Positions 2 through 15,692 of a stretch of 34,954 nucleotides of DNA are shown here, piece after piece. Below the pieces are notes generated by a model. That model saw only the letters and a program-made list of their open reading frames with translations. It was not told the origin of the DNA and did not search any database. How positions within the stretch are numbered: the stretch's first letter is position 1; the number at the start of each line of letters is the position of its first letter. This DNA is from a virus. The DNA is taken from IMG/VR virus record IMGVR_UViG_3300028025_001215, positions 1 to 34,954 of that record. One strand, written 5' to 3'. Position numbers and translations under genes: made by a program.

Positions 2-118
2 TTTGTGATCATTCTCGGTGCCGTGTGGTTAGCACCACACATGCATAGAACATATGCATTGTTTACAGGCGTATTGTTTACAACACTAGGTTGCTTAAAG
101 ATATGGGGTTTGATATGA
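2..118 (+). CDS. C-terminal end of a membrane protein (partial at left edge)
   Basis: Reading from base 2, the frame is open for 38 codons to a TGA at 116-118. The peptide is strongly hydrophobic (starts FVIILGAVWLAP, ends TTLGCLKIWGLI) with two short non-polar stretches split by HMHRTY, as in a small multi-spanning membrane protein. Its stop overlaps the ATG of the next gene in an ATGA, the same coupling used along this whole array, which is the main reason to believe the frame. The start lies outside the window. The family is not recognised; a holin-like or other small inner-membrane protein is possible. Confidence 0.55.
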   Translation, partial: FVIILGAVWLAPHMHRTYALFTGVLFTTLGCLKIWGLI

Positions 119-369
119 CACTTACAACTCTTAATAAGTATGAACTTGTTTTGCATGATGTGCCAATGTGTGCGGTGTGCAACAAGCCTGTAGAGCGGAT
201 TGAATCCATGTACAGAGATGAACTAGGTGCAAAGCATTTTCGTGTGTATTGCCACGGAGATATGGAAGAAGCATTGCTAAATGATGTGACTATAGAAGAC
301 TGCGATAGTGTTCGCTTTGGTCAAGCATTTATTGACAAACTACCACAACCGCAACTGGAGCAGCCATGA
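115..369 (+). CDS. Small Cys/His-containing protein of unknown function
   Basis: An 84-residue protein starting MTLTTLNKYEL. It has a CxxC pair (CAVC, near residue 19) and a later YCHGD, so a small zinc-binding or redox site is possible, but no family is recognised. The ATG at 115 is preferred over TTG at 91 and ATG at 103 because it overlaps the TGA of the upstream membrane protein and has GGGG about six bases upstream. The C-terminus (PQPQLEQP) is a low-complexity tail. Its own TGA overlaps the next ATG (ATGA). Function unknown; its place in an early accessory array suggests a host-takeover or regulatory role, which is inference only. Confidence 0.7.
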   Translation: MTLTTLNKYELVLHDVPMCAVCNKPVERIESMYRDELGAKHFRVYCHGDMEEALLNDVTIEDCDSVRFGQAFIDKLPQPQLEQP

Positions 370-758
370 CACCAGAAGACGAAGAATTTAATCGTATAGA
401 GCGTGAGTCACGCATTAAGCAGGAAAATGTGCGCTCATTGTGGCGTAAGAGGCGTGACATTGATGAGCCCGTTGCTTATGGCATGAAGGATAAGCAAGGC
501 AATGTGTATGACTGTCACCCTGAGCAATATGGCGACTACAAGATACCTTTGTATGCCGCACCAACATTTGCTGAGTATAGCACTGTATGTTTGGAAGTGG
601 CTAAGTTGCAAGAACGGATTGTTGCATTAGAGAGTGCAAATAGTCTTAGAAATGAGGTGATTGAAGAAGTTGCCAAAGCAATTGACAAGTTCGTATTCCC
701 CTTTGGCACTGATACAGTAGCAAGCTTTGCTGTGTATGTAAGGAGCATGAAGTCATGA
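366..758 (+). CDS. Early phage hypothetical with PVAY...IPLYAAP segment
   Basis: A 130-residue charged protein. The middle (about residues 37-66) runs from DEPVAYGMKDKQGNVYDCHP to KIPLYAAP, a segment type repeated in the genes at 755 and 1960 and common in unassigned phage proteins. The C-terminal half (STVCLEVAKLQERIVALESA) looks like a coiled coil. It is coupled to both neighbours by ATGA overlaps. No enzyme motif is visible. A 278-residue open frame on the opposite strand across 536-1372 is regarded as a shadow, because this gene and its successor fit the overlapping array. Confidence 0.75.
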   Translation: MTPEDEEFNRIERESRIKQENVRSLWRKRRDIDEPVAYGMKDKQGNVYDCHPEQYGDYKIPLYAAPTFAEYSTVCLEVAKLQERIVALESANSLRNEVIEEVAKAIDKFVFPFGTDTVASFAVYVRSMKS

Positions 759-1303
759 GTAAAGAAGCAATGAAACAGGCGCTTGAGGCGTTGGAAGAGT
801 TTGGCGAACACTACAACTGGTGTCATCAATTCCCAACGTATGCCTCTCCCGAAGAATACCCGCCATGCAACTGCGGATACGACAAAGCCATCACCGCCAT
901 CAAAGAAGCCTTGGCACAGCCAGAAGAAGAAAAACTGCATCCAGTCCACATTGGCGTTGATGTGACAAGAGAAGGCACAGCGGTAACAGCGTTTTACCGA
1001 AAGCCTGATGCTGTGATGGAAATGTTTTATTCGCAGTTTCATCCATTGGCACAACCAGAGCAAGAGCCTGTGGCGTGGTGGATTCCAAAAGCAGAACAGT
1101 TTTGCTTGCCAAGCAGTGATGGAACGCGCCCGTTTGCTAAAGCATGGGAGCCTCTCTACACCACCCCACCACAGCGCAAATGGGTGGGGCTGACGCAGGA
1201 TGAACTGAACATGATTGGCGACAGTATGCGGACATGGAATAGTTGGACTATTACCGATGTTTACTTTGCCATTGAAGCCAAACTCAAGGAGAAGAACACA
1301 TGA
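755..1303 (+). CDS. Early phage hypothetical, modular (EPVAW...PLYTTPP...WVGLT)
   Basis: A 182-residue protein with three visible parts. Residues 1-60 are a helical N-terminus (MSKEAMKQALEALEEF ... AITAIKEALAQP) with CNCGY in the middle. Residues 61-105 form a linker ending LAQPEQEPVAWW. Residues 106-182 carry PLYTTPPQRKWVGLTQDE and end AIEAKLKEKN. The first and last parts are frequent in unassigned phage proteins; no biochemical role is known to me. The final module closely matches the end of the protein at 1960-2367. It starts at an ATGA overlap and its stop overlaps the next start likewise. Confidence 0.75.
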   Translation: MSKEAMKQALEALEEFGEHYNWCHQFPTYASPEEYPPCNCGYDKAITAIKEALAQPEEEKLHPVHIGVDVTREGTAVTAFYRKPDAVMEMFYSQFHPLAQPEQEPVAWWIPKAEQFCLPSSDGTRPFAKAWEPLYTTPPQRKWVGLTQDELNMIGDSMRTWNSWTITDVYFAIEAKLKEKNT

Positions 1304-1488
1304 CACACGAAGAACAGATTGCCAAGTTGACAGAGATGTTAGAGATACAACAGAAGTTGCATGAGACAGCAATAGATATGCTCAAGCCAGCAGTTGATGC
1401 GGCGTATCAGAAAGGCTACGCCGATGCAATGGGTTGGAAGACACAAAACTATCTTGAACACTTGCCTCCACAGAAGAAGAACACATGA
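1300..1488 (+). CDS. Small helical phage protein with YQKGYADAM motif
   Basis: A 62-residue, mostly helical protein (THEEQIAKLTEMLEIQQKLH) followed by AAYQKGYADAMGW. The last segment matches SSYQQGYADALDK in the membrane-anchored protein at 1960-2367, so the two genes share a module. Starts at an ATGA overlap and ends in one. No known function. The short length and coiled-coil character suggest an oligomerising or adaptor protein. Confidence 0.7.
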   Translation: MTHEEQIAKLTEMLEIQQKLHETAIDMLKPAVDAAYQKGYADAMGWKTQNYLEHLPPQKKNT

Positions 1489-1697
1489 CTAAACGAGAAA
1501 CAATCATTGCCTTCATCAAAGACATGTTGCGACCACGCACACTGGAAGAGATCATCGCCAAGGAGATGCGTGAGGCTTATTTATCCAAGATGGAAGCAGA
1601 AAAAGCGCTTGAGTATGCAACCAGCGTAGTTGAGTACAACAGCCAACGCATTCATCGTCTACAAGAACGACTAAATGAACTGGAGAAGAAAGCATGA
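1485..1697 (+). CDS. Small coiled-coil protein
   Basis: A 70-residue basic, helical protein. Residues 15-70 (RPRTLEEIIAKEMREAYLSK through SQRIHRLQERLNELEKKA) read as one long amphipathic helix with regular leucines, so a dimeric coiled coil is likely. Similar short phage proteins ('E..AKE...A......ALEYA') are common and uncharacterised. ATGA overlaps on both sides place it in the same transcript. The antisense 62-codon frame across 1552-1740 is a shadow. Confidence 0.7.
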   Translation: MTKRETIIAFIKDMLRPRTLEEIIAKEMREAYLSKMEAEKALEYATSVVEYNSQRIHRLQERLNELEKKA

Positions 1698-1963
1698 ACA
1701 AAGAGCAAATAAATAAAGAATTTGATGATGAATACGTCAAGTATCGCGATGCATTTCCAAAAGACTATGCATACGTAGCAACTGACTACAAATTTAATGT
1801 TCTCCCAGAGCAATCCGAATGGGTGTGCTACTTGTGGGGTAACAGGCCAGGATTATCAGGAATTATCTATCGGCCTAACAAAGGCAAAGAGCCAAACTGG
1901 TTTGTGCGCTGGATGATGCGAATTTGTTTTGATTGCTTATGGGTGAAGGAGAAGAAAGTATGA
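1694..1963 (+). CDS. Small phage hypothetical with aromatic, basic C-terminus
   Basis: An 89-residue protein with an acidic N-terminus (NKEQINKEFDDEYVKYRDAF) and an aromatic, basic C-terminal part (PNWFVRWMMRICFDCLWVK), which could sit on a membrane surface. No catalytic motif is seen. The first ATG overlaps the previous TGA, and its TGA overlaps the ATG at 1960, so translation of the whole array is probably coupled. Confidence 0.7.
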   Translation: MNKEQINKEFDDEYVKYRDAFPKDYAYVATDYKFNVLPEQSEWVCYLWGNRPGLSGIIYRPNKGKEPNWFVRWMMRICFDCLWVKEKKV

Positions 1964-2367
1964 AACGATTTGAACGCATAATCTTTTGGCTTTTAATCTT
2001 TGTTTTCTTTATTGAGCCATTCATCATCACTTACTACACTGCTAAGAAGCCGGATAAGAATGTCAAGGAGGTCATACAAGAAGAACTTGATAGTTCATAC
2101 CAACAAGGCTATGCCGATGCCTTGGATAAGAACCCAGTCATAAACAAACCGGTCCCTATTGCATTTACTGACGGACAAGACATAAACTGGATCGACGGTG
2201 TGCAAAGACAAAAGATCAAAGATGCAATTCCGCTTTACACAAAGCCACAAACACATGAGTGGGTTGGCTTAACAGACAGTGACCGTGAAGCACTGATGAT
2301 CGTATGGAAATCAAAACAACGGTTAATGGCAGCAGTTGAAAACAAACTTAAGGAAAAAAACCAATGA
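1960..2367 (+). CDS. Membrane-anchored modular early protein
   Basis: A 135-residue protein. The ATG at 1960 is chosen over the one at 1933 because it forms the usual ATGA overlap and follows GGAG in the upstream gene. Residues 6-26 are a single strongly hydrophobic segment (IIFWLLIFVFFIEPFIITYY), probably an N-terminal anchor. The rest is soluble: YQQGYADALDK (shared with the gene at 1300), then KPVP...IPLYTKP and WVGLTDSD, ending ENKLKEKN (shared with the gene at 755). It therefore looks like an N-terminal anchor joined to modules found separately next door. Function unknown. Confidence 0.75.
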   Translation: MKRFERIIFWLLIFVFFIEPFIITYYTAKKPDKNVKEVIQEELDSSYQQGYADALDKNPVINKPVPIAFTDGQDINWIDGVQRQKIKDAIPLYTKPQTHEWVGLTDSDREALMIVWKSKQRLMAAVENKLKEKNQ

Positions 2368-2528
2368 AAACCAAACAAGAAATTAAAGAAGAAATCATTG
2401 AGTTGTACGGTGCTACTAGAGCATTAAGCGATGCAATGAGCCTATTGCATGCACAAAACATGGAGAAATCTAAACAGATGATGGCTTTAAACCAGATGCT
2501 TAAAGACATGGAGGACGACCATGAATAA
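2364..2528 (+). CDS. 54-residue helical protein
   Basis: A short gene that fits exactly between its neighbours: ATG at 2364 overlaps the previous TGA, and its TAA at 2526-2528 overlaps the next start by eight bases. The product (MKTKQEIKEEIIELYGATRA, ending MLKDMEDDHE) is helical, charged and methionine-rich. No family recognised. The conserved overlap pattern, rather than its sequence, supports it being real. Confidence 0.6.
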   Translation: MKTKQEIKEEIIELYGATRALSDAMSLLHAQNMEKSKQMMALNQMLKDMEDDHE

Positions 2529-2757
2529 CAAAGATGAAATCATTAAACTGGCTAAATCAATCAACGAAGATTGGTGGCTAGACGATATTGACCTTCAAAC
2601 CTTTGCAAAACTGGTAGCAGAGAAAGAACGTGAGGCGTGTGCAGAAATTTGTGACGGCTTTTATCTATCTTGGATAGACATACAAGGTAGATATGAATTC
2701 ATGGGTGAAGGAGCAAGCGAATGTGCTGGCGCAATCAGAACAAGAGGACAAGTATGA
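2521..2757 (+). CDS. Small phage hypothetical (EKEREACAEICD type)
   Basis: A 78-residue protein containing TFAKLVAEKEREACAEICDG and ending ASECAGAIRTRGQV. This 'F A.LVAEKEREACAE.C ... CA.AIR.RG' pattern recurs in many phages and some prophages without assigned function. The regularly spaced cysteines might bind metal, which is inference. GGAGG precedes the start inside the previous gene, and the stop overlaps the next ATG (ATGA). Confidence 0.75.
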   Translation: MNNKDEIIKLAKSINEDWWLDDIDLQTFAKLVAEKEREACAEICDGFYLSWIDIQGRYEFMGEGASECAGAIRTRGQV

Positions 2758-3146
2758 ATGAAGACATCTTTTTAAAGGTCAAGAAGTTTCGGCAAAAGCT
2801 TGGACTTCCTATCTCTGAGATACCACAGCTGCTGGAACCACAGCATCTCAGCTTCTATGCACGGTTTCTGATGGAGGAACTGTCCGAGCTGCTAAAGGCA
2901 CATGAGAAGAATGATCTGGTGGATGCTGCCGATGCTATTGCCGACTTAGCATATGTCACCATGGGCTGTGCGCATCATATGGGCATACCTCTGCCAAGAA
3001 TTCTTGACATCGTGCATGACTGCAATATGCAAAAGGTGCCAGGGGCCACAAATCGTGGCACACAGCAGGACGCCATGAAGCCGGAAGGTTGGACTGGGCC
3101 TGAAGAACACATAGCTTTACTTTTATTTGAAAAAAATAGAAAATAA
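2754..3146 (+). CDS. MazG-like nucleotide pyrophosphohydrolase
   Basis: A 130-residue protein of the MazG/HisE-like all-alpha pyrophosphohydrolase fold. These enzymes split nucleoside triphosphates, or ppGpp-like molecules, to monophosphate and PPi using Mg2+. The metal-binding pattern is visible as EELSELLKAHEKNDLVDAAD (EExxE about residues 54-58, then D..DA.AD), followed by ADLAYVTMGCAHHMG. The start at 2754 gives an ATGA overlap and places MNEDIF first; the longer frame from 2721 only adds residues from the preceding gene. It ends the first array just before promoter P1. Phage versions are proposed to clean or rebalance dNTP pools; the true substrate cannot be read from sequence. Confidence 0.82.
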   Translation: MNEDIFLKVKKFRQKLGLPISEIPQLLEPQHLSFYARFLMEELSELLKAHEKNDLVDAADAIADLAYVTMGCAHHMGIPLPRILDIVHDCNMQKVPGATNRGTQQDAMKPEGWTGPEEHIALLLFEKNRK

Positions 3147-3147
3147 A

Positions 3148-3197
3148 TGTGTACTTTCCAAAAAGCACGGTATAATGCAATTGTTTACTTGTTAAAC
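3148..3197 (+). promoter_or_regulatory. Promoter P1 with GTTTACTT start-site box
   Basis: A perfect -10 (TATAAT, 3171-3176) lies in the longest left-hand gap, with a weak -35 (TGTGTA at 3148-3153, 17-base spacer). The block TATAATGCAATTGTTTACTT (3171-3190) recurs with 18 of 20 bases at 9580-9599. GTTTA at 3183-3187 and TAAAC at 3193-3197 form an imperfect inverted repeat over the predicted start site, so a repressor or phage-factor site is plausible. Drives the replication genes from 3233. Confidence 0.65.
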
Positions 3198-3232
3198 ACA
3201 CTAAAATTCTTAACTTCTTAAAGGCTAAACTT

Positions 3233-3727
3233 ATGAACATCTTTTACTTACACCACCTGCCAGCCATAGCAGCTCGTATGCATTGCGATAAACATGTGGT
3301 CAAAATGATCTTGGAATCCTGCCAAATGCTGGCAACCGCACATCATGTACATGGCAATGGCCACAATGTGACTTACAAACAAGCACATTTAAATCACCCA
3401 TCTACTGTATGGGTACGCCAATCAGGTGAGCACTATCGTTGGTTACGTGATTTAACTCGCAACTTATGCGATGAATTCACTAACCGTTATGGCAAAGTGC
3501 ATGCATGTGAGCAAATACTTATCAATGAATTGTGGAATCCACCGTCAGCAATAGCTGATTCAAACAAGTGGTCTAACCCACCACAGTGTATGCCTGATGA
3601 GTTCAAGCACTATGACACAGTAATGGCATACCGCCGTTATTACATGAGCAAAGATAGCACATGGGCACGTACCTATTACAAAGGCACCGGTTCACGGCCT
3701 AACTGGATGGAGTATGACTATGTCTAA
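3233..3727 (+). CDS. CDKHVVKMILES-type phage protein, possibly pyrimidine dimer glycosylase-like
   Basis: A 164-residue protein beginning MNIFYLHHLPAIAARMHCDK and continuing HVVKMILESCQMLATAHH. This N-terminal block is highly conserved in a phage family often auto-labelled pyrimidine dimer DNA glycosylase/endonuclease V-like, although T4 endonuclease V itself is not obviously similar. The C-terminal part has aromatic motifs (YRWLRDLTRNLCDEFTNRYG and ARTYYKGTGSRPNWM). It is the first gene after P1 and lies next to dCMP deaminase and DNA replication genes, consistent with a DNA or nucleotide role. Function should be treated as unproven. Confidence 0.7.
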   Translation: MNIFYLHHLPAIAARMHCDKHVVKMILESCQMLATAHHVHGNGHNVTYKQAHLNHPSTVWVRQSGEHYRWLRDLTRNLCDEFTNRYGKVHACEQILINELWNPPSAIADSNKWSNPPQCMPDEFKHYDTVMAYRRYYMSKDSTWARTYYKGTGSRPNWMEYDYV

Positions 3728-4187
3728 TACTCTTAAGTGGAAGATCCGGTACTTAAAACTTGCACAACATGTGGCATCATGGTCAAAAGATCCATCAACA
3801 CAGTGCGGTGCGGTCATAGTAAATCCTGACAATGAAATCGTAAGCATTGGCTTTAACGGTTTTCCTCGTGGTGTCGAGGATAGTCAGGTAAGGCTTAATG
3901 ACCGTGACCTTAAGTTGTCTATGACATTACACGCTGAGAGGAATGCTATACTCTTTGCAAGGCAATCACTTAAAGGTTGCACCATCTACACATGGCCAAT
4001 GCATGCATGCAGTGAATGTGCGGCTATGATCATTCAATCCGGTATCACATCACATGTAACCGTGGTCACACACAACCAACGTTGGGAACATTCATTTGAA
4101 ATAGCACGTAGCATGTTCGATGAAGCCAACATATCTGTACACGCATTATCGCCAAACTGGCTGGAGAATGACAATGAATCTAAGTGA
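3714..4187 (+). CDS. Deoxycytidylate (dCMP) deaminase
   Basis: A 157-residue zinc-dependent deaminase converting dCMP to dUMP, the precursor for dTMP. The signature is complete: HAERNAIL (His73, with catalytic Glu75) and WPMHACSECA (Cys99 and Cys102), giving the Hx E ... PCxxC-type zinc site. KDPSTQCGAVIV near the N-terminus and GFNGFPRG are typical of the ComEB/dCMP deaminase group. ATG at 3714 and ATG at 3720 are both possible starts inside the end of the previous gene. Product dUMP would feed the ThyX-like enzyme encoded at 10843. Strong call; allosteric behaviour unknown. Confidence 0.92.
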   Translation: MTMSNTLKWKIRYLKLAQHVASWSKDPSTQCGAVIVNPDNEIVSIGFNGFPRGVEDSQVRLNDRDLKLSMTLHAERNAILFARQSLKGCTIYTWPMHACSECAAMIIQSGITSHVTVVTHNQRWEHSFEIARSMFDEANISVHALSPNWLENDNESK

Positions 4188-4548
4188 ACTAATTAACCAA
4201 ATGGTGGCTAAACAGGCTGAGCGTAAAGCTTTAACTGACCAAGATAGTGTGTTGGCTAAAGAGCTTGCACAACTTGAAGCCGATATTATGCATGCAATGT
4301 CAGCCGCTGGCACATTCAAGTCAGCATCTGATGCAGGCCATTCCGTCACAATGGCTAAAAAGCTACATCCAACCATTACGGATTGGAACGAATTTTATGG
4401 GTATGTCACTAAGACTAACAGCTTTGACTTACTTCATAAAAGACTTAGCAGCCCTGCTTTCCGCGATCGTTGGGAAGCAGGTGAGATCATCCCCGGGTCT
4501 ACTACTGCTGAGGTATGGGGAATTTCTGTTACTAAATCACGCAAATAA
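4174..4548 (+). CDS. Unknown phage protein with N-terminal coiled coil
   Basis: A 124-residue protein. The ATG at 4174 (MNLSELINQM) is chosen because GGAGA at 4163-4167 is correctly spaced from it; upstream ATGs at 4120 and 4168 are poorer. Residues 1-45 (QAERKALTDQDSVLAKELAQ) look like a coiled coil. The C-terminal half contains ITDWNEFYGYVTKTNSFDLL and RLSSPAFRDRWEAGEIIPG. This 'W.efy.yi......fdlL.kR....a.rer...g..vPGv' pattern recurs in phage proteins next to replication genes. It overlaps the deaminase by 14 bases. Function unknown. Confidence 0.72.
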   Translation: MNLSELINQMVAKQAERKALTDQDSVLAKELAQLEADIMHAMSAAGTFKSASDAGHSVTMAKKLHPTITDWNEFYGYVTKTNSFDLLHKRLSSPAFRDRWEAGEIIPGSTTAEVWGISVTKSRK

Positions 4549-4559
4549 GGAGTTTCTAA

Positions 4560-5315
4560 ATGGCTAAAACCCAAAACCAGTTGACCGTATTCGAGTCCGA
4601 GTTAGAGAAGTTGGCAAGTGCCGGCATGGTGGCTGAACGTAGTACTGCAGGTACCGTGTTCTTAAGCACCAAAGGCGGTGCATTGTCTTACCGTGACAAC
4701 CCCATTGCTGGCAACAGCTTGGACGTTGTGATCCTGAGCTCACCTGTTGAGCGCTTGTATTACACAGCACGTTATGACCCAGCAAATCCTGCTGGTCCAG
4801 TATGTTTTGCACTTGGTGCAACATTGACAGGCTTAAAGCCAAATGCCGCATCCACTGAAAAGCAAAGTGAGATGTGTATGAATTGCCCTAAAGATCAGTG
4901 GGGCAGTGCTACCAATGGGGGTAAAGGTAAGGCTTGTGCTGAAAAGCGTAGGTTGTTGGTAATGACAGCTGATAGCATTGACAGTGTTGAGGCTGTGAAC
5001 CTTGGTGAAGTGGCGGCTTTACGCACCCCGGTAACCAGTGTTCGTGGCTTTGCTACTTACTTGCAAAAGATTGCCAGTGCTACCAAGCGGCCATTAAGTG
5101 CCGTGGTTACACGTATCAGTGTTGTGCCTGATGCTAAGACACAGTTCAAACTACAGTTTGACTTTGTACGTGCTATTGACAACCTTGATGTGGTCAAGGC
5201 ATTGATTGCACGTGGTGATAAAGAACTGTTGGCAGCCGTAGAGACTGCCGGTGTTGAGGAAGATGCTGTTGATGCTGATGCACCAGTAGCAGTGGCTAAG
5301 TCAGGAAAGTACTAA
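4560..5315 (+). CDS. Cys-rich protein upstream of DNA polymerase, candidate ssDNA-binding protein
   Basis: A 251-residue protein starting after a good AAGGAG site. Residues 78-125 contain PVCFALGATLTG, MCMNCPKDQWGSA and GKGKACAEKRRLLVM: four spaced cysteines that look like a zinc site next to a basic strand. The C-terminus is acidic (EEDAVDADAPVAVAKSGKY), as in single-stranded DNA-binding proteins that use such tails to hold partners. Its position directly before DNA polymerase fits a replication role. Assignment to ssDNA binding is inference from layout; no direct family match is certain. Confidence 0.65.
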   Translation: MAKTQNQLTVFESELEKLASAGMVAERSTAGTVFLSTKGGALSYRDNPIAGNSLDVVILSSPVERLYYTARYDPANPAGPVCFALGATLTGLKPNAASTEKQSEMCMNCPKDQWGSATNGGKGKACAEKRRLLVMTADSIDSVEAVNLGEVAALRTPVTSVRGFATYLQKIASATKRPLSAVVTRISVVPDAKTQFKLQFDFVRAIDNLDVVKALIARGDKELLAAVETAGVEEDAVDADAPVAVAKSGKY

Positions 5316-5316
5316 T

Positions 5317-5445
5317 ATGCTGACCAGACAAGAGCTTATTCTTCAGTTCATGATCTCATTGGCGGCTAACTCCAATGTGCATCACACCGATATTATGCGG
5401 ATTGCCAATGCACTTGCGCATGAATATTTGGAATCACTAGGCTAG
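5317..5445 (+). CDS. 42-residue protein of unknown function
   Basis: A short frame exactly filling the gap between its neighbours: ATG one base after the previous TAA, and TAG one base before the polymerase ATG. The product is MLTRQELILQFMISLAANSN followed by a histidine-containing helix ending HEYLESLG. No family is recognised. Support comes from the perfect fit and plausible helical composition; there is no strong ribosome binding site beyond coupling to the upstream gene. Confidence 0.5.
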   Translation: MLTRQELILQFMISLAANSNVHHTDIMRIANALAHEYLESLG

Positions 5446-5446
5446 C

Positions 5447-7267
5447 ATGAGCGATCCTATCTTCTTAGACTTTGAGTCGGAAGCTATCGGCCCACGTCCT
5501 GAACAGTACCCACCTAAGCCAGTAGGCTTGGCGGTTCTTGACAGGGCTGGGCAGTTTAAGTCCGGTTATTTCTCATTTGCACACGACACAAACAACAACA
5601 CGGACTACAACACGGTCCGTCAAATGCTCTTAGACATCTGGGCATCCAATAGGTCAGTATGTTTTCATAATGCCATGTTCGATCTATCGATCATCTATGA
5701 AAAGTTTGACTTACCGTTCTTGCCTGCTGAGCGTACACATGACACTTTAGTGCTTGCTTTCTTACATGACCCATATGCACGCAGTTTGTCGCTAAAAGAG
5801 TTGTGTAAGGAATGGCTAAACGTACAGCCTGAGGAACGTGATGAGCTGTTTGAATGGCTGACTATGAACATAGAAGCTGTTCGTAAAAAGCCAAAGCAAG
5901 CAGGCGCATTCATTGCACGTGGGCCAGCTGATCTTGTAGGTAAGTATGCCGAGGCCGATGTACGGCTGACTGCAGGTTTGTATGACTTCACGCAAGAAGT
6001 TCGTGACACTATGCCAAAGGCTTACTTACGTGAAATGCAATTGATGCCGGTATTACTGGAAAACAGTAAGCTTGGCATTCGTGTTGACACAGAAGGTATG
6101 AAGGCATGCCTTGAAAAGGCTAAAGCTGATATTGCCATGTGTGAGGTATGGCTTGCCAGATACTTTGATGTGGCTGACATTAACTACAACTCAGGTCAGC
6201 AACTTGTGACTGCCATCATGCAAAAAGGCGTGTATGACGACACAAAGTCTTGGCCGATGAGTGACAAAGGTACGCCCTTGTCAGACAAAGACACACTAAA
6301 GGTGATGATCACCGATAGTGAATTATCATCGGTTCTACGGCACCGAGATGTGCTTGTAAAACTAACAGGTACTTACATAGAGCCTTGGTTAGAACAGTCG
6401 GCAACTACAGGCCGCATCTATACTGAATGGAACACTGTAAGAGGTGAGATTGGTGGCACACGCACAGGTAGATTGTCAGCCAAGCCAACTTTACAGACCA
6501 TGCCGACACGAGGACCTAAAACCCCTCTGCCTGTTGAGTTACAAGGGCTGGTAATACCAAAGGTACGTGAATTTATCTTACCAGATGAAGGCCATCTGAT
6601 GGCGGCCGCGGACTTTCAAGCACAAGAGCTTCGGTTGTTCGCACACTTTGAGGACGGTAAGTTAGCTGAGCAGTATCGTAAGGATCCGAATGCAGACTTA
6701 CACACATTTGCAGCCAACTTGATGTCTGAAAAAGCCGGTAGGCCTATCATTCGTGACTATGCAAAGACAATGTCATTCGGTATTTTGTACGGTGCAGGCC
6801 CCAAGAAGATCAGTGAAATGCTAGGCATTCCTTACAATGAGGCCAAGCAGTTGATTGATTTGTATAAGTCTGAAGTGGCACCTGGCTTAGACAATGTCAA
6901 TAATGACCTGATGACTAGGTACAAGCTCAGGTCACCATTCTCTACTATTGGTGGCAGACTGGTGAAAGGTGAACCGCCTAAGATGATCAATGGCAAGCTG
7001 ATGAACTTTGGCTTTAAGTCACTGAATACACTGATTCAAGGCAGTGGTGCTGATATGGCTAAGCAGGCGATGATCGATTATTGGAATGTGGCACAAGATG
7101 GCAGGTTGCTATTGTCACTGCATGATGAGTTGATCATTTCCGTGAAGGCTGATGTTGTCCAACGTGAGGCTGATAAACTTGCACATTGCATGATTCATGC
7201 TTTTACATTGGATGTTCCTTTAATCGCCGAAGCAAAAGTCGGCAATAATTTCTCGGAGGTGAAGTAA
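5447..7267 (+). CDS. Family A DNA polymerase with 3'-5' exonuclease domain
   Basis: A 606-residue replicative polymerase of the Pol I/T7 type. The proofreading domain has Asp8/Glu10 (FLDFESEA), CFHNAMFDL with Asp79, and KYAEADVRL with Tyr167 and Asp171, so the exonuclease looks active. The polymerase domain has GTRTGRLSAKPTLQTMP (337-353), motif A AADFQAQELRLF with Asp389, motif B RDYAKTMSFGILYG (Arg436, Lys440, Phe444, Tyr448), and motif C SLHDELI with His559, Asp560 and Glu561. No 5'-3' exonuclease domain is present, normal for phage enzymes. Phe444 corresponds to Phe762 of E. coli Pol I. Stop and next start overlap as TAATG. Confidence 0.97.
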   Translation: MSDPIFLDFESEAIGPRPEQYPPKPVGLAVLDRAGQFKSGYFSFAHDTNNNTDYNTVRQMLLDIWASNRSVCFHNAMFDLSIIYEKFDLPFLPAERTHDTLVLAFLHDPYARSLSLKELCKEWLNVQPEERDELFEWLTMNIEAVRKKPKQAGAFIARGPADLVGKYAEADVRLTAGLYDFTQEVRDTMPKAYLREMQLMPVLLENSKLGIRVDTEGMKACLEKAKADIAMCEVWLARYFDVADINYNSGQQLVTAIMQKGVYDDTKSWPMSDKGTPLSDKDTLKVMITDSELSSVLRHRDVLVKLTGTYIEPWLEQSATTGRIYTEWNTVRGEIGGTRTGRLSAKPTLQTMPTRGPKTPLPVELQGLVIPKVREFILPDEGHLMAAADFQAQELRLFAHFEDGKLAEQYRKDPNADLHTFAANLMSEKAGRPIIRDYAKTMSFGILYGAGPKKISEMLGIPYNEAKQLIDLYKSEVAPGLDNVNNDLMTRYKLRSPFSTIGGRLVKGEPPKMINGKLMNFGFKSLNTLIQGSGADMAKQAMIDYWNVAQDGRLLLSLHDELIISVKADVVQREADKLAHCMIHAFTLDVPLIAEAKVGNNFSEVK

Positions 7268-7905
7268 TGGCATTTTCTTACTCGGCGGTCAAGCTTTATG
7301 AGCAATGTCCTAGCAGGTATAAGTTTAATCGAATAGATCGACTACCTGAGCCTTCTGGTCCTGCCGCTGAAAGAGGAACATCCATACACTCTGAGATTGA
7401 GAACATACTCAATGGCAGTTTGATGCTGTTATCTGAACCGGTCCAACATCTGGCTGATAAGCTGGAAGGCTGGATACGACTAAAGGCTGCATCAGAGCTT
7501 AAGTTTGCTGTTGATCATGCATGGCAACCGGTTGACTACACAGCACCTGCAGCAATGCTTAGAGGCATTATTGACTTGTATGTAGAGCAAGGTGATGAGG
7601 CCACTGTGCTAGACTTTAAGACTGGCAAGGATAGAGATTACAGTGACCAAGTGTCTGTGTATGCTGCTGTTATCTTGGCGGCTAAGCCACACATTAAAAA
7701 GGTGAACTTGGTGATTGAGTTCCTTGACCTAAAGAAAACAACCACTTACAGCCCACTTACTCGTGACCAGTTGGAGGATATGAAAACACTGATCACAGGC
7801 AGGTTAGAGACGATCCGTAAAGATTCGATCTTTGCACCTAATCCATCCGGCTTGTGTAAGTTCTGCCATTTTCGTAAAAGCAATGGCGGGCCTTGCAAAT
7901 GGTAA
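7267..7905 (+). CDS. Cas4/RecB-like PD-(D/E)XK nuclease with Fe-S cysteines
   Basis: A 212-residue exonuclease-type protein. The nuclease core is visible: GTSIHSEIE with His41, RGIIDLY with Asp103, VLDFKTGK with Asp116 and Lys118, and DQVSVYAA giving the QxxxY motif (Gln128, Tyr132). One cysteine near the N-terminus (EQCPSRYKF, Cys14) and three at the C-terminus (CKFCHFRKSNGGPC: Cys197, Cys200, Cys210) match the four-cysteine 4Fe-4S arrangement of Cas4 and AddB-like nucleases. No CRISPR array is nearby, so a role in phage recombination, end processing or host DNA degradation is more likely. Translationally coupled to the polymerase. Confidence 0.9.
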   Translation: MAFSYSAVKLYEQCPSRYKFNRIDRLPEPSGPAAERGTSIHSEIENILNGSLMLLSEPVQHLADKLEGWIRLKAASELKFAVDHAWQPVDYTAPAAMLRGIIDLYVEQGDEATVLDFKTGKDRDYSDQVSVYAAVILAAKPHIKKVNLVIEFLDLKKTTTYSPLTRDQLEDMKTLITGRLETIRKDSIFAPNPSGLCKFCHFRKSNGGPCKW

Positions 7906-8186
7906 CTAAAGTTATACTTGAACGTGATCTTGAAAAATATTTCACGGCTCAGTGTAAGAAGCATAAGCTTTTGTCATTAAAGCTGCATGTGAAGTTTGCA
8001 AGAGGCTGGCCTGATCGTATTGTGCCGATCGAGAATGGCCAAGTCTTGTGGGTAGAACTAAAGCGGCCAGGTGGTAAGGTGTCAGCATTACAAGCCAAGG
8101 TGCATCAAGATCTAGATAAGCTTGGTCATAAAGTTTATGTCATAGATTCTAAAGAAGGGATTGACCGTGTACTGGGAACCGCATGA
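7899..8186 (+). CDS. VRR-NUC domain nuclease
   Basis: A 95-residue single-domain nuclease of the virus-type replication-repair family. The core is GWPDRIVP (Asp39), then VLWVELKRPGGKVSALQAKV with Glu53, Lys55 and Gln65, and a final strand HKVYVID. The ATG at 7899 is favoured over the TTG at 7893 and overlaps the preceding TAA. The family cuts branched or flapped DNA. Phages commonly place it beside an SNF2-type helicase, as here (20-base overlap with the next gene), suggesting the two proteins act together on replication or recombination intermediates. Confidence 0.93.
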   Translation: MVTKVILERDLEKYFTAQCKKHKLLSLKLHVKFARGWPDRIVPIENGQVLWVELKRPGGKVSALQAKVHQDLDKLGHKVYVIDSKEGIDRVLGTA

Positions 8187-9555
8187 GTATCAGAAGAAAG
8201 CTGTTAAGTTTTTAGTTGAGCATGGCTCTGGTCAGTTATGGCTAGACCCTGGCTTAGGTAAGACCAGTATTACACTGGAGACATTTAAGGTGTTGAAGGC
8301 TGCCGGTGCTGTAAAGAAAGCATTGATCGTGGCACCACTTAGACCGGCCTATGCTGTATGGCCTGAAGAGATTAAGAAGTGGGATAACTTTGCTGATATA
8401 AAGATCAGTGTACTGCATGGGCCTACGAAGGACCGATCTTTGTTAGACAAGGCAGATATACATGTGATTAACTTTGAAGGACTGCAGTGGTTGTCAAAGT
8501 CTTTGGCGGGTAAGCCATTTCCATACGATCTATTAGTGGTTGATGAGATTAGCTATTTACGGAACACACGAACTGAACGGTTTAAATGTCTATCGCCATT
8601 CCTTGACAAGTTTAAGCGTCGGTTCGGATTAACTGGTTCACCTGCACCAAATAGCTTAATGGACATCTTTGGTCCACAATTGGTGATTGATCGTGGTGCC
8701 ACATTTGGTCGGTTCATCACACACTTTCGGACAAACTACTTCTATCAGACCGGCTATGGTGGTTACACATGGGCACTGAAGTCTGATTCAGCTGACAAGA
8801 TCTATGAGCTGTTGGCTGACAAAGTCCTCCGTATGAAAGCTGAAGACTATCTGAACATGCCAGAGTTGCTGCTTAATCGGGTCTATGTAGACTTACCTGA
8901 TGCAGCCAAAAAGCTTTACAAAGAGCTTGAAAGCCAACTATTGATTGAGTTTGAAAGTGACCAAGTCACGGCTACTAATGCTGCAGTGGCTGTTGGCAAA
9001 TGTCAGCAAATAGCAAATGGTGCAATCTATTTAGATGACACCGATCATGAATACAAAATTATTCATACTGCAAAGATAGATGCTCTAGATGAGTTGATCG
9101 AAGGGCTGAATGGCAAACCTTGCATTGTAGGTTACCACTTCAATCATGATCTAAAGCGGTTACAGAAGTATTTGCCAAGTGCACCGCATATTGGTTCAGG
9201 GGTTACGCCAAAAGAAATGCAAAAAGTGATTGACAAATGGAATGCTGGTGACATACCAGTTTTATTTGCGCATCCACAGTCGGCAGGTCATGGGTTGAAC
9301 CTGCAAGGTACTGGTCACGCAGTAATCTGGTTTAGCAATACATGGTCATTGGAAGTCTATGACCAGTTTATTCGCAGGCTTTGGCGCCAAGGTCAGAGGA
9401 ACAACATTGTGGTTCATCAGATCATTGCTAGAGACACGATTGATGAAGCCATTGTGTCAGCCATTAACAGCAAAGACAAAACACAGCAAGCTCTTATGAA
9501 TGCAGTAAGAGACTATTCCAAACAAGTAAAAGAAAGAGAGGAAATAAAAATTTAA
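8167..9555 (+). CDS. SNF2-type superfamily 2 DNA helicase/translocase
   Basis: A 462-residue ATPase. GTG at 8167 is chosen because GAAGGGA at 8154-8160 is well spaced from it and touches the alternative TTG at 8161. Motifs in order: Q-like EPHEYQKKAVKFL, Walker A LDPGLGKTSIT (near residue 30), Walker B VVDEISYL, motif III GLTGSPAPNS, motif V AGHGLNLQGTGHAVIW and motif VI QFIRRLWRQGQ with its arginine finger. This is the phage SNF2 group that moves along duplex DNA and may remodel forks or help VRR-NUC. It is the last gene of the P1 operon; no DnaB-like helicase or primase is present in the window. Confidence 0.93.
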   Translation: MYWEPHEYQKKAVKFLVEHGSGQLWLDPGLGKTSITLETFKVLKAAGAVKKALIVAPLRPAYAVWPEEIKKWDNFADIKISVLHGPTKDRSLLDKADIHVINFEGLQWLSKSLAGKPFPYDLLVVDEISYLRNTRTERFKCLSPFLDKFKRRFGLTGSPAPNSLMDIFGPQLVIDRGATFGRFITHFRTNYFYQTGYGGYTWALKSDSADKIYELLADKVLRMKAEDYLNMPELLLNRVYVDLPDAAKKLYKELESQLLIEFESDQVTATNAAVAVGKCQQIANGAIYLDDTDHEYKIIHTAKIDALDELIEGLNGKPCIVGYHFNHDLKRLQKYLPSAPHIGSGVTPKEMQKVIDKWNAGDIPVLFAHPQSAGHGLNLQGTGHAVIWFSNTWSLEVYDQFIRRLWRQGQRNNIVVHQIIARDTIDEAIVSAINSKDKTQQALMNAVRDYSKQVKEREEIKI

Positions 9556-9556
9556 G

Positions 9557-9599
9557 TGTTTACTTTACAAAAACTATAGTACAATGCAACTGTTTACTT
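9557..9599 (+). promoter_or_regulatory. Promoter P2, near copy of P1
   Basis: The gap between helicase and the next gene repeats the P1 layout: TGTTTA (9557-9562), 17 bases, TACAAT (9580-9585), then GCAACTGTTTACTT over the predicted start site. TACAATGCAACTGTTTACTT (9580-9599) differs from P1 at two of 20 bases, and the upstream A-rich spacer is also similar. GTTTACTT occurs twice here, at 9558-9565 and 9592-9599. Drives the nucleotide-metabolism genes from 9618. Confidence 0.65.
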
Positions 9600-9617
9600 A
9601 ACAACTGAAAGGAAATC

Positions 9618-10067
9618 ATGAGTGATCCATACATCTACATAGCATCGCCATTCTTTAATGCAGACCAACTTGAAATAGTTGAAACCATTAAGAGTGTATT
9701 GGACAACAATAAGCTGCCGTACTTTAGCCCTAAAGACGAATGCATGTACAAAGAAGGTGAAACAACACCTGAGGAAGTCCTTGAAATAAACATCATGGGC
9801 TTAAACAAAACCGACATATGTGTATGTGTTACCGACGGCAAAGACCCTGGCACAATGTTTGAAGCCGGTTGGTGTTATGCCAAAGGTATTCCATTGATCT
9901 ATGTCTGGCTTGGTGGCTTACCTGGTCAAAAATTCAATCTTGTATTGGCAGCATCAGGTTCCGTAGTTCGTAGCTATGAACAACTAGACCTTGCAATTAA
10001 AGAGATTAAAGAGGTAGGCGCATTTATCCGTAGGAACTGGTCCGAGGAGAAGATGGACTATGAATAA
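9618..10067 (+). CDS. Nucleoside 2-deoxyribosyltransferase family protein
   Basis: A 149-residue protein of the family that breaks the N-glycosidic bond of 2'-deoxynucleosides or deoxynucleotides, moving deoxyribose to another base or to water. It has the N-terminal YIYIASPFFNADQ, the central DICVCVTDGKDPGTMFEAGW (probable catalytic Glu82, with Asp73 and Asp76 nearby) and FNLVLA near residue 106. A clear AAAGGAAA site precedes the ATG. First gene after P2 and followed with an 8-base overlap by an HD phosphatase, so the two likely act in the same salvage or pool-shaping step. Whether it is a transferase or a hydrolase (DNPH1-like) is unclear. Confidence 0.9.
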   Translation: MSDPYIYIASPFFNADQLEIVETIKSVLDNNKLPYFSPKDECMYKEGETTPEEVLEINIMGLNKTDICVCVTDGKDPGTMFEAGWCYAKGIPLIYVWLGGLPGQKFNLVLAASGSVVRSYEQLDLAIKEIKEVGAFIRRNWSEEKMDYE

Positions 10068-10572
10068 AGGCGATTTTGCTTTCTTTATGCAAAGCTATAC
10101 GCTTGAGCATACAAAACGCTATAGCATGAAGCCGGTGGTTCACCAAGAGAGTGTGGCAACACACAGTTTCTTTGTGTCCCTTGGCGTACTTATGCTATCC
10201 GGTACTTACAAGTTCGATGTTGACAAGGCCGTCAAAATGGCCATATGTCATGACTTAGCTGAAATGGAGATCTCTGATGTGAACCATTTGGTCAAGAAGA
10301 ACTTTCCAGTGGTTGCCAAGGCGCTTAAACTGGCGGAACACGATATTGTGCAAGGCTTTCCTGAACAGGTCAGAGAATATTGCACTATGTATCATGACGG
10401 ATCGCCAGAAGCATTAGTGGTTCATTATGCCGATGCCTTGCAATGCCTACAGTATTCATCAAATGAGATGGGGCTAGGCAATGGCGGCTACATGGTCGAT
10501 GTCTATGAAAATAGCAACAAACGGTTAGCGGAACTTGAGGAAAAACTTGAACCTTACAAGGTGCTGCCATGA
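10060..10572 (+). CDS. YfbR-like HD-domain 5'-deoxynucleotidase
   Basis: A 170-residue HD hydrolase that, by family, removes phosphate from deoxynucleoside monophosphates. Metal and catalytic residues are all visible: ESVATHSF with His35, ICHDLAEMEISD with His64-Asp65, Glu68 and Asp73 matching the HDxxExxxxD of E. coli YfbR, and HYADALQCL with Asp125. Its start overlaps the end of the deoxyribosyltransferase gene and its stop overlaps the next start (ATGA). The related DatZ enzymes of 2-aminoadenine phages are HD dATP triphosphatases, so a dATPase activity cannot be excluded from sequence alone. Confidence 0.88.
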   Translation: MNKGDFAFFMQSYTLEHTKRYSMKPVVHQESVATHSFFVSLGVLMLSGTYKFDVDKAVKMAICHDLAEMEISDVNHLVKKNFPVVAKALKLAEHDIVQGFPEQVREYCTMYHDGSPEALVVHYADALQCLQYSSNEMGLGNGGYMVDVYENSNKRLAELEEKLEPYKVLP

Positions 10573-10901
10573 AAACGACAGATCAAGTTTTAGAACAGAG
10601 AGGCGAGGTGTATGGTGATTTTTTTGAGGGTATCTCATTAGAAGCTGTTATCCTTGAAAATATAAAGGACAGGTATCGCAAGCAACATAAGCAAGAGATG
10701 GATCCTGTCTATGTTATTTATCTCTCTAAGATTGCCATGAAACTTTCTCGGTTGGCCGTATCCCCTAGGCATATGGACAGCTGGACAGACATTGCAGGTT
10801 ACGCTCGGTTAGTAGAAATTCAACTCACAAAGGAAATGAAAAATGCCAAAAGTCAGAAAAGAACAAATGCCGCATCTTCAACAGATGCACACAAAGCTTA
10901 A
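10569..10901 (+). CDS. DUF6378-like phage protein
   Basis: A 110-residue helical protein. Early RGEVYGDFFEG and later IYLSKIAMKLSRLAVSPRH followed by DSWTDIAGYARLVE match the pattern of a small phage family (DUF6378) often found beside nucleotide enzymes, with no proven activity. The 'K.sRl....... DsW.DiaGYa' block is the most conserved part. Start is an ATGA overlap. The last 59 bases overlap the ThyX-like gene in another frame, so its C-terminus (NAASSTDAHKA) is probably dispensable. Confidence 0.78.
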   Translation: MKTTDQVLEQRGEVYGDFFEGISLEAVILENIKDRYRKQHKQEMDPVYVIYLSKIAMKLSRLAVSPRHMDSWTDIAGYARLVEIQLTKEMKNAKSQKRTNAASSTDAHKA

Positions 10902-11766
10902 ATTCGGTCAAGCTGTAAAGCCTATCGAGTTTGTCAATCAGTTGGAGAATATAGACGTACAGATCGTCCATGCCCCAACCATTCCTGAGTTTCGTAAGAC
11001 TATTTCAGTCTTCTTAATGAATACATGGAATGACAAGATTGAATGGGATTTCCCCGAGGACGCCATCAGTCAGACTATTGATGAGCTATTCCGGTATGAA
11101 CTGCTACCTACTGCCATGGAAACGATTAACATTACTTGGTCGGTTAATGGTATGGATATGGTAGACACAACGCACCTAATCAGACATCGTCTGTTTAGTT
11201 TTGCGGCACAGGTGCATGGTGATCGCGATATGCGTGATGACCGTGTTGTAGTAAAACCCGGGATTATGGCCAACAAGGACTTCTATGATCGATACAAACA
11301 AATTACAGAGATGGCTCGTGGACTCTACGTGGATATGCTTGATAGCGGTTTGGTTCATGGTCTTGATGCCCGTACTGTTATGCCTAGGAACTTTGAGCAT
11401 TTTTATATGGTACGCTGCACAATTAAAGATCTTATTGGTTACTGCATCATGCGAGGCGATGAACAGATACAGACAACGGTAGACAACATCATTGCCATGA
11501 AGCTATGGCTGGAGATTCTTAAGAAGTATCCGTTCTTAAAAGGGTTGGTGGACTTCCGTAAGCCGGATCAGTTTTACCAACGTCAATCGGCCAAAGGTAA
11601 GACAAACATCTTCCCACCAAACGCTAAGAATGACAACTTTGACTGGTGTGAAGAACAGTTCTACCATCCAATCGGTCGTGATGAGTTTGCAGGTGGTGAG
11701 GTCTACCTAAAGATTCGTGAAGACTTGCTTAAACAAATCGATGCTATCGAAAAGAGGTACTTCTAA
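10843..11766 (+). CDS. Divergent ThyX-like flavin-dependent thymidylate synthase
   Basis: A 307-residue protein resembling ThyX, which makes dTMP from dUMP with FAD, NADPH and methylene-tetrahydrofolate. It has ETINITWSVNGMDM and LIRHRLFSFAAQVHGDRDMR (Arg114-His-Arg, with Ser119), then DARTVMPRNFEHFYMV and IKDLIGYCIMRGDEQIQ. Canonical ThyX has RHRxxSxxxxSxR and a final AQ-E-I-R block. Here the second serine is replaced (Val124) and the final EIR is QTTVD, so substrate binding must differ. The ATG at 10843 has AAGGA at the right distance, although it overlaps the previous gene by 59 bases. It would use the dUMP made by the deaminase at 3714. Confidence 0.8.
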   Translation: MPKVRKEQMPHLQQMHTKLKFGQAVKPIEFVNQLENIDVQIVHAPTIPEFRKTISVFLMNTWNDKIEWDFPEDAISQTIDELFRYELLPTAMETINITWSVNGMDMVDTTHLIRHRLFSFAAQVHGDRDMRDDRVVVKPGIMANKDFYDRYKQITEMARGLYVDMLDSGLVHGLDARTVMPRNFEHFYMVRCTIKDLIGYCIMRGDEQIQTTVDNIIAMKLWLEILKKYPFLKGLVDFRKPDQFYQRQSAKGKTNIFPPNAKNDNFDWCEEQFYHPIGRDEFAGGEVYLKIREDLLKQIDAIEKRYF

Positions 11767-12071
11767 TGAAAACATGGATAGCCATGCTGAATGATTTGAG
11801 ACAAATAACTAAAAGAGATAGGAAAGCCGTCTTTAAGGATTTCAAACTTGCCTATCCAAACTGGAGACAAAAGACATTTGCCACTTTAGAGCTAGTTGTA
11901 GTCGAGCTTGAAAAGCAGGTAGATGTCTGTATCCTGTATGAAGTGAAAAAACAAGCACTCAATAGAAGTGTACGGCATTACAAATTCTTTCTTTCTAAAC
12001 ACAAAACCTTTAAACAACTAATCAGGAAAAATCATGAACACAAAAATCAGATGGACAGACAGAGAGCGTGA
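11766..12071 (+). CDS. Basic phage protein of unknown function
   Basis: A 101-residue, strongly basic, mostly helical protein (KTWIAMLNDLRQITKRDRKA at the start; HKTFKQLIRKNHEHKNQMDR near the end). It starts in a TAATG overlap with the ThyX-like gene and overlaps the next gene by 38 bases. The charge suggests nucleic-acid binding, but no motif supports a specific fold and I do not recognise the family. Confidence 0.65.
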   Translation: MKTWIAMLNDLRQITKRDRKAVFKDFKLAYPNWRQKTFATLELVVVELEKQVDVCILYEVKKQALNRSVRHYKFFLSKHKTFKQLIRKNHEHKNQMDRQRA

Positions 12072-12741
12072 ACTGGTACTTAGCAAAGCCACGCAGCTTA
12101 TGCATACTGGCGGCTATAACATCATGGAAGCACTACGACAAGCACAACAGCAAGTCATAGTGCCTGACCGTAGACGGCCACTGGTCTCACGTGGCTATTG
12201 TGTTGACCTTGTCAAAGAGGTTAAGCACCGTGCCGCCAATGTTGTGCCAGTTAAAGCAGCACCAGTGCTTGTACAAGCACCTGTAGTTGAAGAACCTATG
12301 CCTGTGCCTACATCTGTGCTTGATCACAGTGCTTCCTTGGATAGTCTAATCAACGCATTGGCTAAGCAAGTCGCGGAGACCTTCAAGCAGCATGTAAAAG
12401 TGGCTATAAAAGAGCTAGAGCATGAGTTTAAAGTGGAGAAGCATAATCCAACATATGCAGCCACTGGCTCATTCAAACCTAGGGTTGTGATCATCGGCTT
12501 GCTAGGTGACCAAGTACACTCAATCACAAGAGAATTTCAGGACCGCTATGATATTAAATGCATTGATACCGATCGTGCTATGGGGATGGAACCTCCTTCA
12601 GCCAATGCTTATTTACTAATGAAGAACTTTATCAACCATCCGTTGTACCACAAATACCAAGCATATCCACAACACGTGCTGATTGATGGTGGTATGTCAA
12701 CCCTAAGAATGTGGCTTAATACGAAAGGACAAGAGCTATGA
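12034..12741 (+). CDS. Putative regulator: N-terminal SANT/HTH-like, C-terminal DUF2325-like
   Basis: A 235-residue protein in three parts. Residues 1-60 (KIRWTDRERELVLSKATQLM) look like a SANT/Myb-like or other helix-turn-helix segment. Residues 65-105 are a Pro/Val/Ala-rich linker. Residues 145-235 form an alpha/beta domain: RVVIIGLLGDQVHSITREF, ANAYLLMKNFINHPLYHKY and a final VLIDGGMSTLRMWL. The last domain resembles DUF2325, a small Rossmann-like domain found in phage and bacterial proteins of unknown role. GGAAAA precedes the ATG. DNA binding is inference from the N-terminal pattern and basic charge. Confidence 0.7.
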   Translation: MNTKIRWTDRERELVLSKATQLMHTGGYNIMEALRQAQQQVIVPDRRRPLVSRGYCVDLVKEVKHRAANVVPVKAAPVLVQAPVVEEPMPVPTSVLDHSASLDSLINALAKQVAETFKQHVKVAIKELEHEFKVEKHNPTYAATGSFKPRVVIIGLLGDQVHSITREFQDRYDIKCIDTDRAMGMEPPSANAYLLMKNFINHPLYHKYQAYPQHVLIDGGMSTLRMWLNTKGQEL

Positions 12742-13025
12742 AAGAAGACACTATTAAAAAGACTTATGATGAGTGGGTCGAACTTTTAAAGCACACCGGC
12801 AATGAGGCTATGCAATCCAACAGCTATGATGTGTGGATAGAGGCATTTCATACTGGCAGCATCTTGACAAAAACCAAGTGTGCTCAAGCCATTCTCACTG
12901 AACTTCAGATCGGTATGAGTGAAGACTTTGATGATGACACCAGTCTATCAGTCACCGATGTCAAACAACTACAAGCATCAATGCTTAAGAAGGTTGTTGA
13001 GATAATTAACGAGCAGCAGGCATAG
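12738..13025 (+). CDS. Acidic phage protein of unknown function, last gene of + block
   Basis: A 95-residue acidic helical protein (DTIKKTYDEWVELLKHTGNE; MSEDFDDDTSLSVTDVKQLQ). It starts in an ATGA overlap and ends the rightward block. Its last 20 bases overlap the 3' end of the leftward structural block, so the two transcripts converge with no spacer. No family or motif recognised. Confidence 0.65.
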   Translation: MKEDTIKKTYDEWVELLKHTGNEAMQSNSYDVWIEAFHTGSILTKTKCAQAILTELQIGMSEDFDDDTSLSVTDVKQLQASMLKKVVEIINEQQA

Positions 13026-14043: not shown

Positions 14044-14052
14044 AGAAACCTC

Positions 14053-15690: not shown

Positions 15691-15692
15691 AT

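Follow-up and report, generated by a model that had tools for sequence, protein, structure and literature searches.

Two promoters in the + strand gene block of an uncultured phage share a conserved box, and the question raised by this locus is which regulator, encoded by phage or host, reads it. The DNA analysed here, referred to as the window, comprises an entire IMG/VR virus record (34,954 bp). Its + strand block extends from about 90 to 13,025 and has two real intergenic gaps, of 86 nucleotides (nt; 3147-3232) and 62 nt (9556-9617). Each contains one promoter and heads a gene run, in agreement with a first-pass annotation of the same DNA; with the gene starts chosen in this analysis, on which the gap sizes rest, all remaining gaps of the block are of 11 nt or less. 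We propose that the TGTTTACT boxes are probably operator half-sites of a phage-encoded helix-turn-helix (HTH) repressor of the KorA/ArdK type, most likely the product of the gene at 11766-12071, which would be autoregulated and would shut off replication and nucleotide genes.

Paired boxes at the two promoters of the window

Around the -10 elements, TATAATGCAATTGTTTACTT (3171-3190) and TACAATGCAACTGTTTACTT (9580-9599) agree at 18 of 20 bases, and further upstream TGTGTACTTT (3148-3157) agrees with TGTTTACTTT (9557-9566), both as previously annotated. What had gone unremarked is that the upstream match is a second copy of the downstream box, at a spacing of exactly 34 bp in both promoters. Aligned at an offset of 6409, promoter 1 reads TGTGTACTT TCCAAAAAGCACGG TATAAT GCAAT TGTTTACTT and promoter 2 reads TGTTTACTT TACAAAAACTATAG TACAAT GCAAC TGTTTACTT. 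Both thus carry a composite element, TGTNTACTT at -35 followed after 25 nt by TGTTTACTT just 3' of the TATAAT/TACAAT -10, within a wider promoter block repeated over 58 nt at 76% identity (repeat family D3). A scan for the sigma-70 consensus, which requires a spacing of 16-18 nt, lists neither promoter; both have 15 nt.

The composite is rare by chance in the window, and the 15-base core alone is not. There are two exact matches to TGTNTACTT-25 nt-TGTTTACTT; with up to three mismatches there are three, against a shuffle mean of 0.24, and 0 of 100 shuffles reach this number. The core with up to three mismatches was found 8 times against a shuffle mean of 4.28, a weak enrichment that 7 of 100 shuffles equal. 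The paired boxes are a genuine regulatory element and are best interpreted as the paired half-sites of a phage regulon.

Other candidate signals in the window were rejected. The A-rich spacer, put forward as a further shared feature, agrees in part between the two promoters; as a signal it fails because it is not conserved in all relatives (CTCTGCACATAAGG in the group of L006 and L017). The weaker relative of the box annotated at 55-66 is present, although as a third operator it was discarded, since it has no -10, falls within an open frame and has the sequence TGTTTACA instead of TGTTTACT. An exact TGTTTACTT at 1258 was likewise set aside, being inside a gene. At 55-81, TGTTTAC occurs twice, 15 bp apart, within the open frame of a hydrophobic peptide, which was judged a chance codon match.

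The boxes in related phages

A search of IMG/VR with the DNA polymerase gave 141 matching stretches, of which the best 80 were used as loci. The related set consists of the window and 49 loci, with polymerases 72-99% identical where they lie within the locus, and the distant set of 33 loci at 52-54% identity. The pattern TGTTTACT-N15-18-TAYART occurs in 48 of the 50 related records, with 0 matches to the reversed-pattern control, and in 0 of the 33 distant ones. The two related records lacking it are variants, one (G011) with TGTGTACT and the other (G027) with the box and a -10 of TATGAT. By itself, TGTTTACT is found 193 times in the 731 kb of the related set (reversed control, 48) and twice in the 369 kb of the distant set (reversed control, 11).

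The boxes also pair at preferred distances. Allowing one mismatch, they are paired at 34 bp 35 times in the 83 sequences, near-identical phages included; no 34-bp pair was listed for the reversed control in these sequences. Counted in distinct contexts of the related set, and omitting most spacings that occur once, exact half-sites form direct repeats at 34 bp (21), 35 bp (4), 33 bp (2), 15 bp (2) and 12 bp (1), and inverted repeats TGTTTAC-N-GTAAACA with gaps of 3 (7), 4 (6), 6 (5), 7 (1), 23 (2) and 25 (2). In the same set the reversed control gave no direct repeats at 33-35 bp and no inverted ones at gaps of 3, 4, 6 or 7, and in the 33 distant loci no pair spacing was listed as occurring more than once.

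The downstream box forms one arm of a perfect palindrome, TGTTTACTNAGTAAACA, in six loci (L019-L023 and L074, some of them from near-identical phages), which together have 12 such sites. With up to three mismatches the palindrome has 31 matches, against 2 to 25 for shuffled half-sites; since the latter give up to 25, only exact palindromes carry weight. LexA recognizes CTGT-N8-ACAG, and a LexA operator was rejected, the palindrome here being 17 bp long with an odd centre and different arms. The motif search over the genome and its relatives, recommended in the first-pass annotation, thus found the boxes tied to a -10 and paired at special spacings, and the random placement named there as a refutation was not seen. 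Together with the fixed -10 register and the perfect palindromes, this comparison strongly supports the proposal made there, that a phage or host regulator binds the TGTTTACTT box.

The palindrome might act in the mRNA instead, as a 5' stem-loop, with the -35 copy as a mere promoter element. The downstream palindrome would indeed fall at the mRNA 5' end in several relatives. However, in L036, L041, L046, L049, L050 and L051 the inverted repeat sits 5' of the -10 and would hence be untranscribed (for example GTGTTTACTATTTAGTAAACACATGGTACAAT), and in L024 the -35 copy changes along with the downstream one, the -35 box and both palindrome arms all carrying the same change, TGTGTACT. A stem-loop is therefore extremely improbable. 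A scan with TGTGTACTNAGTACACA for phages of the L024 type gave seven stretches, with the promoter context solely in L024's own contig.

The concerted change in L024 also bears on whether the binder could be a host protein. Host regulators are indeed exploited by phages, but here the boxes change together within one phage and track a phage gene family, which makes a host protein quite improbable. Comparison of the polymerase with a genome collection gave one weak match (34%), in a Cloacimonadota metagenome-assembled genome, which is uninformative on the host. Against an annotated phage collection the polymerase matched 1716 records, all below 60% identity, and blastn of 4560-9700 found no match.

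A third promoter was seen in relatives (G006 20190-20340, which is L090; G014 30279, - strand; G005 18350, + strand), with the TGTTTACT box at -35 and TGTGGNAACACAC near the start; at the divergent early promoter of G006 the start-proximal sequence is TGTGCTTAGGCACA. These may represent another type of operator. By eye, the 75-kb record G006 appears to have, in addition to its main set, another set of polymerase-, PD-(D/E)XK- and VRR-NUC-like genes that differs from it (12629-16132 and 65032-71387), and it seems to be either a larger phage or an assembly that joins two phages.

A candidate repressor encoded behind promoter 2

The KorA-type protein is found in 39 of the 50 related records and in 0 of the 33 distant ones. 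In the other 11 related records the sequence continues for 219 to 4763 bases past the polymerase and so stops before the position that the gene has in their nearest kin. As 16 of the 33 distant records reach more than 5.5 kb past the polymerase, the absences there carry some weight. A route independent of the polymerase, in which viral contigs were scanned for the exact palindrome, gave 35 stretches. At 15 of these, from 13 records, a -10 lies in register (in L121 with the promoter on the opposite strand). Twelve of these 13 records, six of the 13 being already in the polymerase set, encode the KorA-type protein, and the thirteenth (L128) stops 88 bp beyond the site. For the remaining 20 stretches there was no match to the protein in the fetched DNA, and none in the seven of their records searched whole. 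Moreover, a boxed -10 lies within 4.5 kb 5' of the KorA-type gene in 29 of 39 loci under a strict rule, and four more (L021-L023 and L074) have the same promoter there with a 14-nt spacing.

With a profile of the 22-member protein alignment, the ArdK chains 7bbq and 7bca came first among eight PDB sequences with E up to 10 (E 1.4e-4 and 2.9e-4). The AlphaFold (AF2) model of the window protein is all helix, with a mean predicted local distance difference test score (pLDDT) of 93.1 and a predicted template modelling score (pTM) of 0.81. KorA or KorA-complex chains take ranks 1-9 in a Foldseek search with this model, and VIA-align aligns KorA entries at Z 7.1-7.6 over 65-77 residues (root-mean-square deviation 1.9-5.8). 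The Pfam family KORA (PF16509) is matched by five of the 22 members at E 0.1 or better (best E 6.7e-4). Many members stop about 10-15 residues past the recognition helix, whose residues K62, Q63, N66 and R67 are 95-100% conserved, in step with the constant half-site. A tblastn search of the annotated phage collection found no match to the protein at E 0.01, and no phage KorA-type repressor was recognised in literature searches confined to open-licence papers.

Several points weigh against a KorA/ArdK-type repressor at these boxes. In the window itself the palindrome of promoter 1 is two mismatches off and promoter 2 keeps the left arm alone. A search of 20 distant loci for ThyX was likewise negative, so that the contrast between clades counts as a single event and not as many. 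By the rules given above, six of the 39 loci have no boxed promoter just 5' of the KorA-type gene. As to the protein, the Foldseek E-values are 0.15 or worse; FocB (PapB type), at Z 8.0, ties with KorA in VIA-align, with other HTH folds not far below; and the Pfam scores are 17.2 and 18.1 bits in the members shown, against a cut-off of 26.7. The C-terminal dimerization domain of KorA (beta strand plus helix) is absent from the predicted model, which has helices only; therefore, the phage protein would be a variant and not a plain KorA/ArdK member.

A second phage protein, A2, was weighed as the binder. It is a conserved winged-helix protein of about 95 residues, weakly MarR-like, whose gene lies close to the beginning of the early operon in relatives (for example L010:2892-3173). 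Many related loci have A2, L010 and L024 among them; it gives weak MarR/HTH_27 matches, and MarR-like dimers can read palindromes. Nevertheless, it is absent from the window and is not confined to boxed records, since it also occurs in L057 and L068, from records that lack a box plus -10. Its recognition helix is variable (21-43% identity at residues 49, 52, 54, 55 and 57) against a near-constant half-site. We thus consider A2 an unlikely binder, and the KorA-type protein remains our candidate; coordinates are given in Table 1.

One other record carries repeats of a different kind. L114, a contig of 13.3 kb without matches to the KorA-type protein or to A2, has two arrays (about 200-270 and 7060-7130) of three near-palindromes each, such as TGTTTACTGAGTAAACA. 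They look like iterons, unrelated to the boxed promoters.

Table 1. Promoter elements, gene runs and candidate repressor gene in the window
Feature	Position	Strand	Remarks
Promoter 1, upstream half-site TGTGTACTT	3148..3156	+	Covers the -35 region, where TGTACT is the best -35 hexamer (15 nt to the -10); position conserved in relatives
Promoter 1, -10 TATAAT	3171..3176	+	Same register in relatives
Promoter 1, downstream half-site TGTTTACTT; right arm imperfect (TGTTTACTTGTTAAACA, differing from TGTTTACTNAGTAAACA at 2 positions)	3182..3198	+	Perfect palindrome here in 6 related loci
Gene run behind promoter 1	3233..9555	+	Pyr_excise-like, dCMP deaminase, Pam3 gp33-like, DNA polymerase A, PD-(D/E)XK nuclease, VRR-NUC, SNF2-type helicase, others; no inner gap above 11 nt
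Promoter 2, upstream half-site TGTTTACTT	9557..9565	+	Covers the -35 region, where TTTACT is the best -35 hexamer (15 nt to the -10)
Promoter 2, -10 TACAAT	9580..9585	+	Followed by GCAAC and the downstream half-site
Promoter 2, downstream half-site TGTTTACTT, right arm not kept (AACAACTG)	9591..9599	+	Perfect palindrome at the equivalent place in L019-L023 and L074
Gene run behind promoter 2	9618..13025	+	Nucleoside deoxyribosyltransferase-like, HD/YfbR-like, DUF6378, ThyX, KorA-type HTH protein, two unknowns
KorA/ArdK-type HTH protein, 101 amino acids, candidate repressor of both promoters	11766..12071	+	Gene after ThyX, fifth behind promoter 2; from profile, model and co-occurrence

Proposed control and comparison with known systems

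The boxes, their fixed geometry, their palindromy in relatives, the HTH homology, the co-occurrence and the gene order are what the analysis shows, while binding, repression, start sites and timing are inferred; the protein is linked to the boxes by co-occurrence, homology and analogy. One half-site would cover the -35 and the second, 34 bp away, the first transcribed bases, so that a bound protein would exclude the host sigma-70 RNA polymerase. The repressor gene would be transcribed from promoter 2 as its fifth gene, and hence both promoters would be closed as the repressor accumulates. Early genes of replication and nucleotide metabolism would be expressed in a burst that ends in autogenous shut-off.

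It might be argued that the KorA-type protein is an activator acting at a weak -35, considering that the hexamer is poor (TTTACT or TGTACT, 15 nt from the -10) and overlapped by one box. However, the start region is overlain by the second box or palindrome, and those KorA/ArdK proteins that have been studied are repressors (PMC9723621, PMC3937220). Activation is thus very improbable.

These results tie an orphan promoter motif from a group of uncultured phages to a specific candidate regulator that is encoded alongside it. Operators made of direct or inverted repeats that overlap the -35 or the -10/start are a KorA/ArdK trait and occur in these phages; their binding by the candidate protein is predicted. 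More tentatively, a phage branch of the KorA/ArdK family without the dimerization domain may read single TGTTTACT half-sites, arranged as direct repeats three turns apart and as inverted repeats of four spacings, with an overshoot and shut-off of early genes as in plasmids entering a new cell; we regard this as possible rather than probable. If true, a stripped-down phage version with many natural operator geometries would show how one HTH handles both direct and inverted repeats, and the idea of plasmid transcriptional overshoot would extend to phage infection. KorA-type repressors in the papers cited are plasmid regulators.

The operator (OA) of KorA from the IncP plasmid RK2/RP4 is GTTTAGCTAAAC, located over the -10, and its arms, GTTTA/TAAAC, are common to the phage boxes (PMC2680271). 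KorA also resembles the phage protein in its HTH fold, as judged from the predicted model, and is a global repressor with autoregulation, as proposed for the phage protein. In OA, though, the arms are adjacent, whereas those of the phage sites are 3-7 bp apart with a second site 34 bp away; KorA is a plasmid protein, and the modelled phage protein has neither the beta strand nor the dimerization domain.

ArdK of the IncW plasmid R388 is the best sequence match among solved structures. Its targets comprise a direct repeat at -35 as well as inverted repeats whose arms are separated by 3 bp or more; across the KorA/ArdK family, arm spacing varies and sites lie at -35 and -10 (PMC9723621). The phage boxes resemble this in their -35 position and in forming both direct and inverted repeats that differ in spacing. 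The regulators of R388 operate in negative feedback loops, ArdK acting at its own promoter, with a burst upon entering a new cell (PMC3937220), and similar feedback is proposed for the phage protein. ArdK differs in its TTGACA-like half-site and in repeats that are close together, while the phages have TGTTTACT, repeats 34 bp apart and a protein without the dimerization domain.

A third likeness, in arrangement, is to the Aca proteins of phages and mobile elements, small HTH proteins encoded late in an operon that repress their own promoter through one or two inverted repeats in its core (PMC9410906). The phage genes in question differ in being those of replication and nucleotide metabolism.

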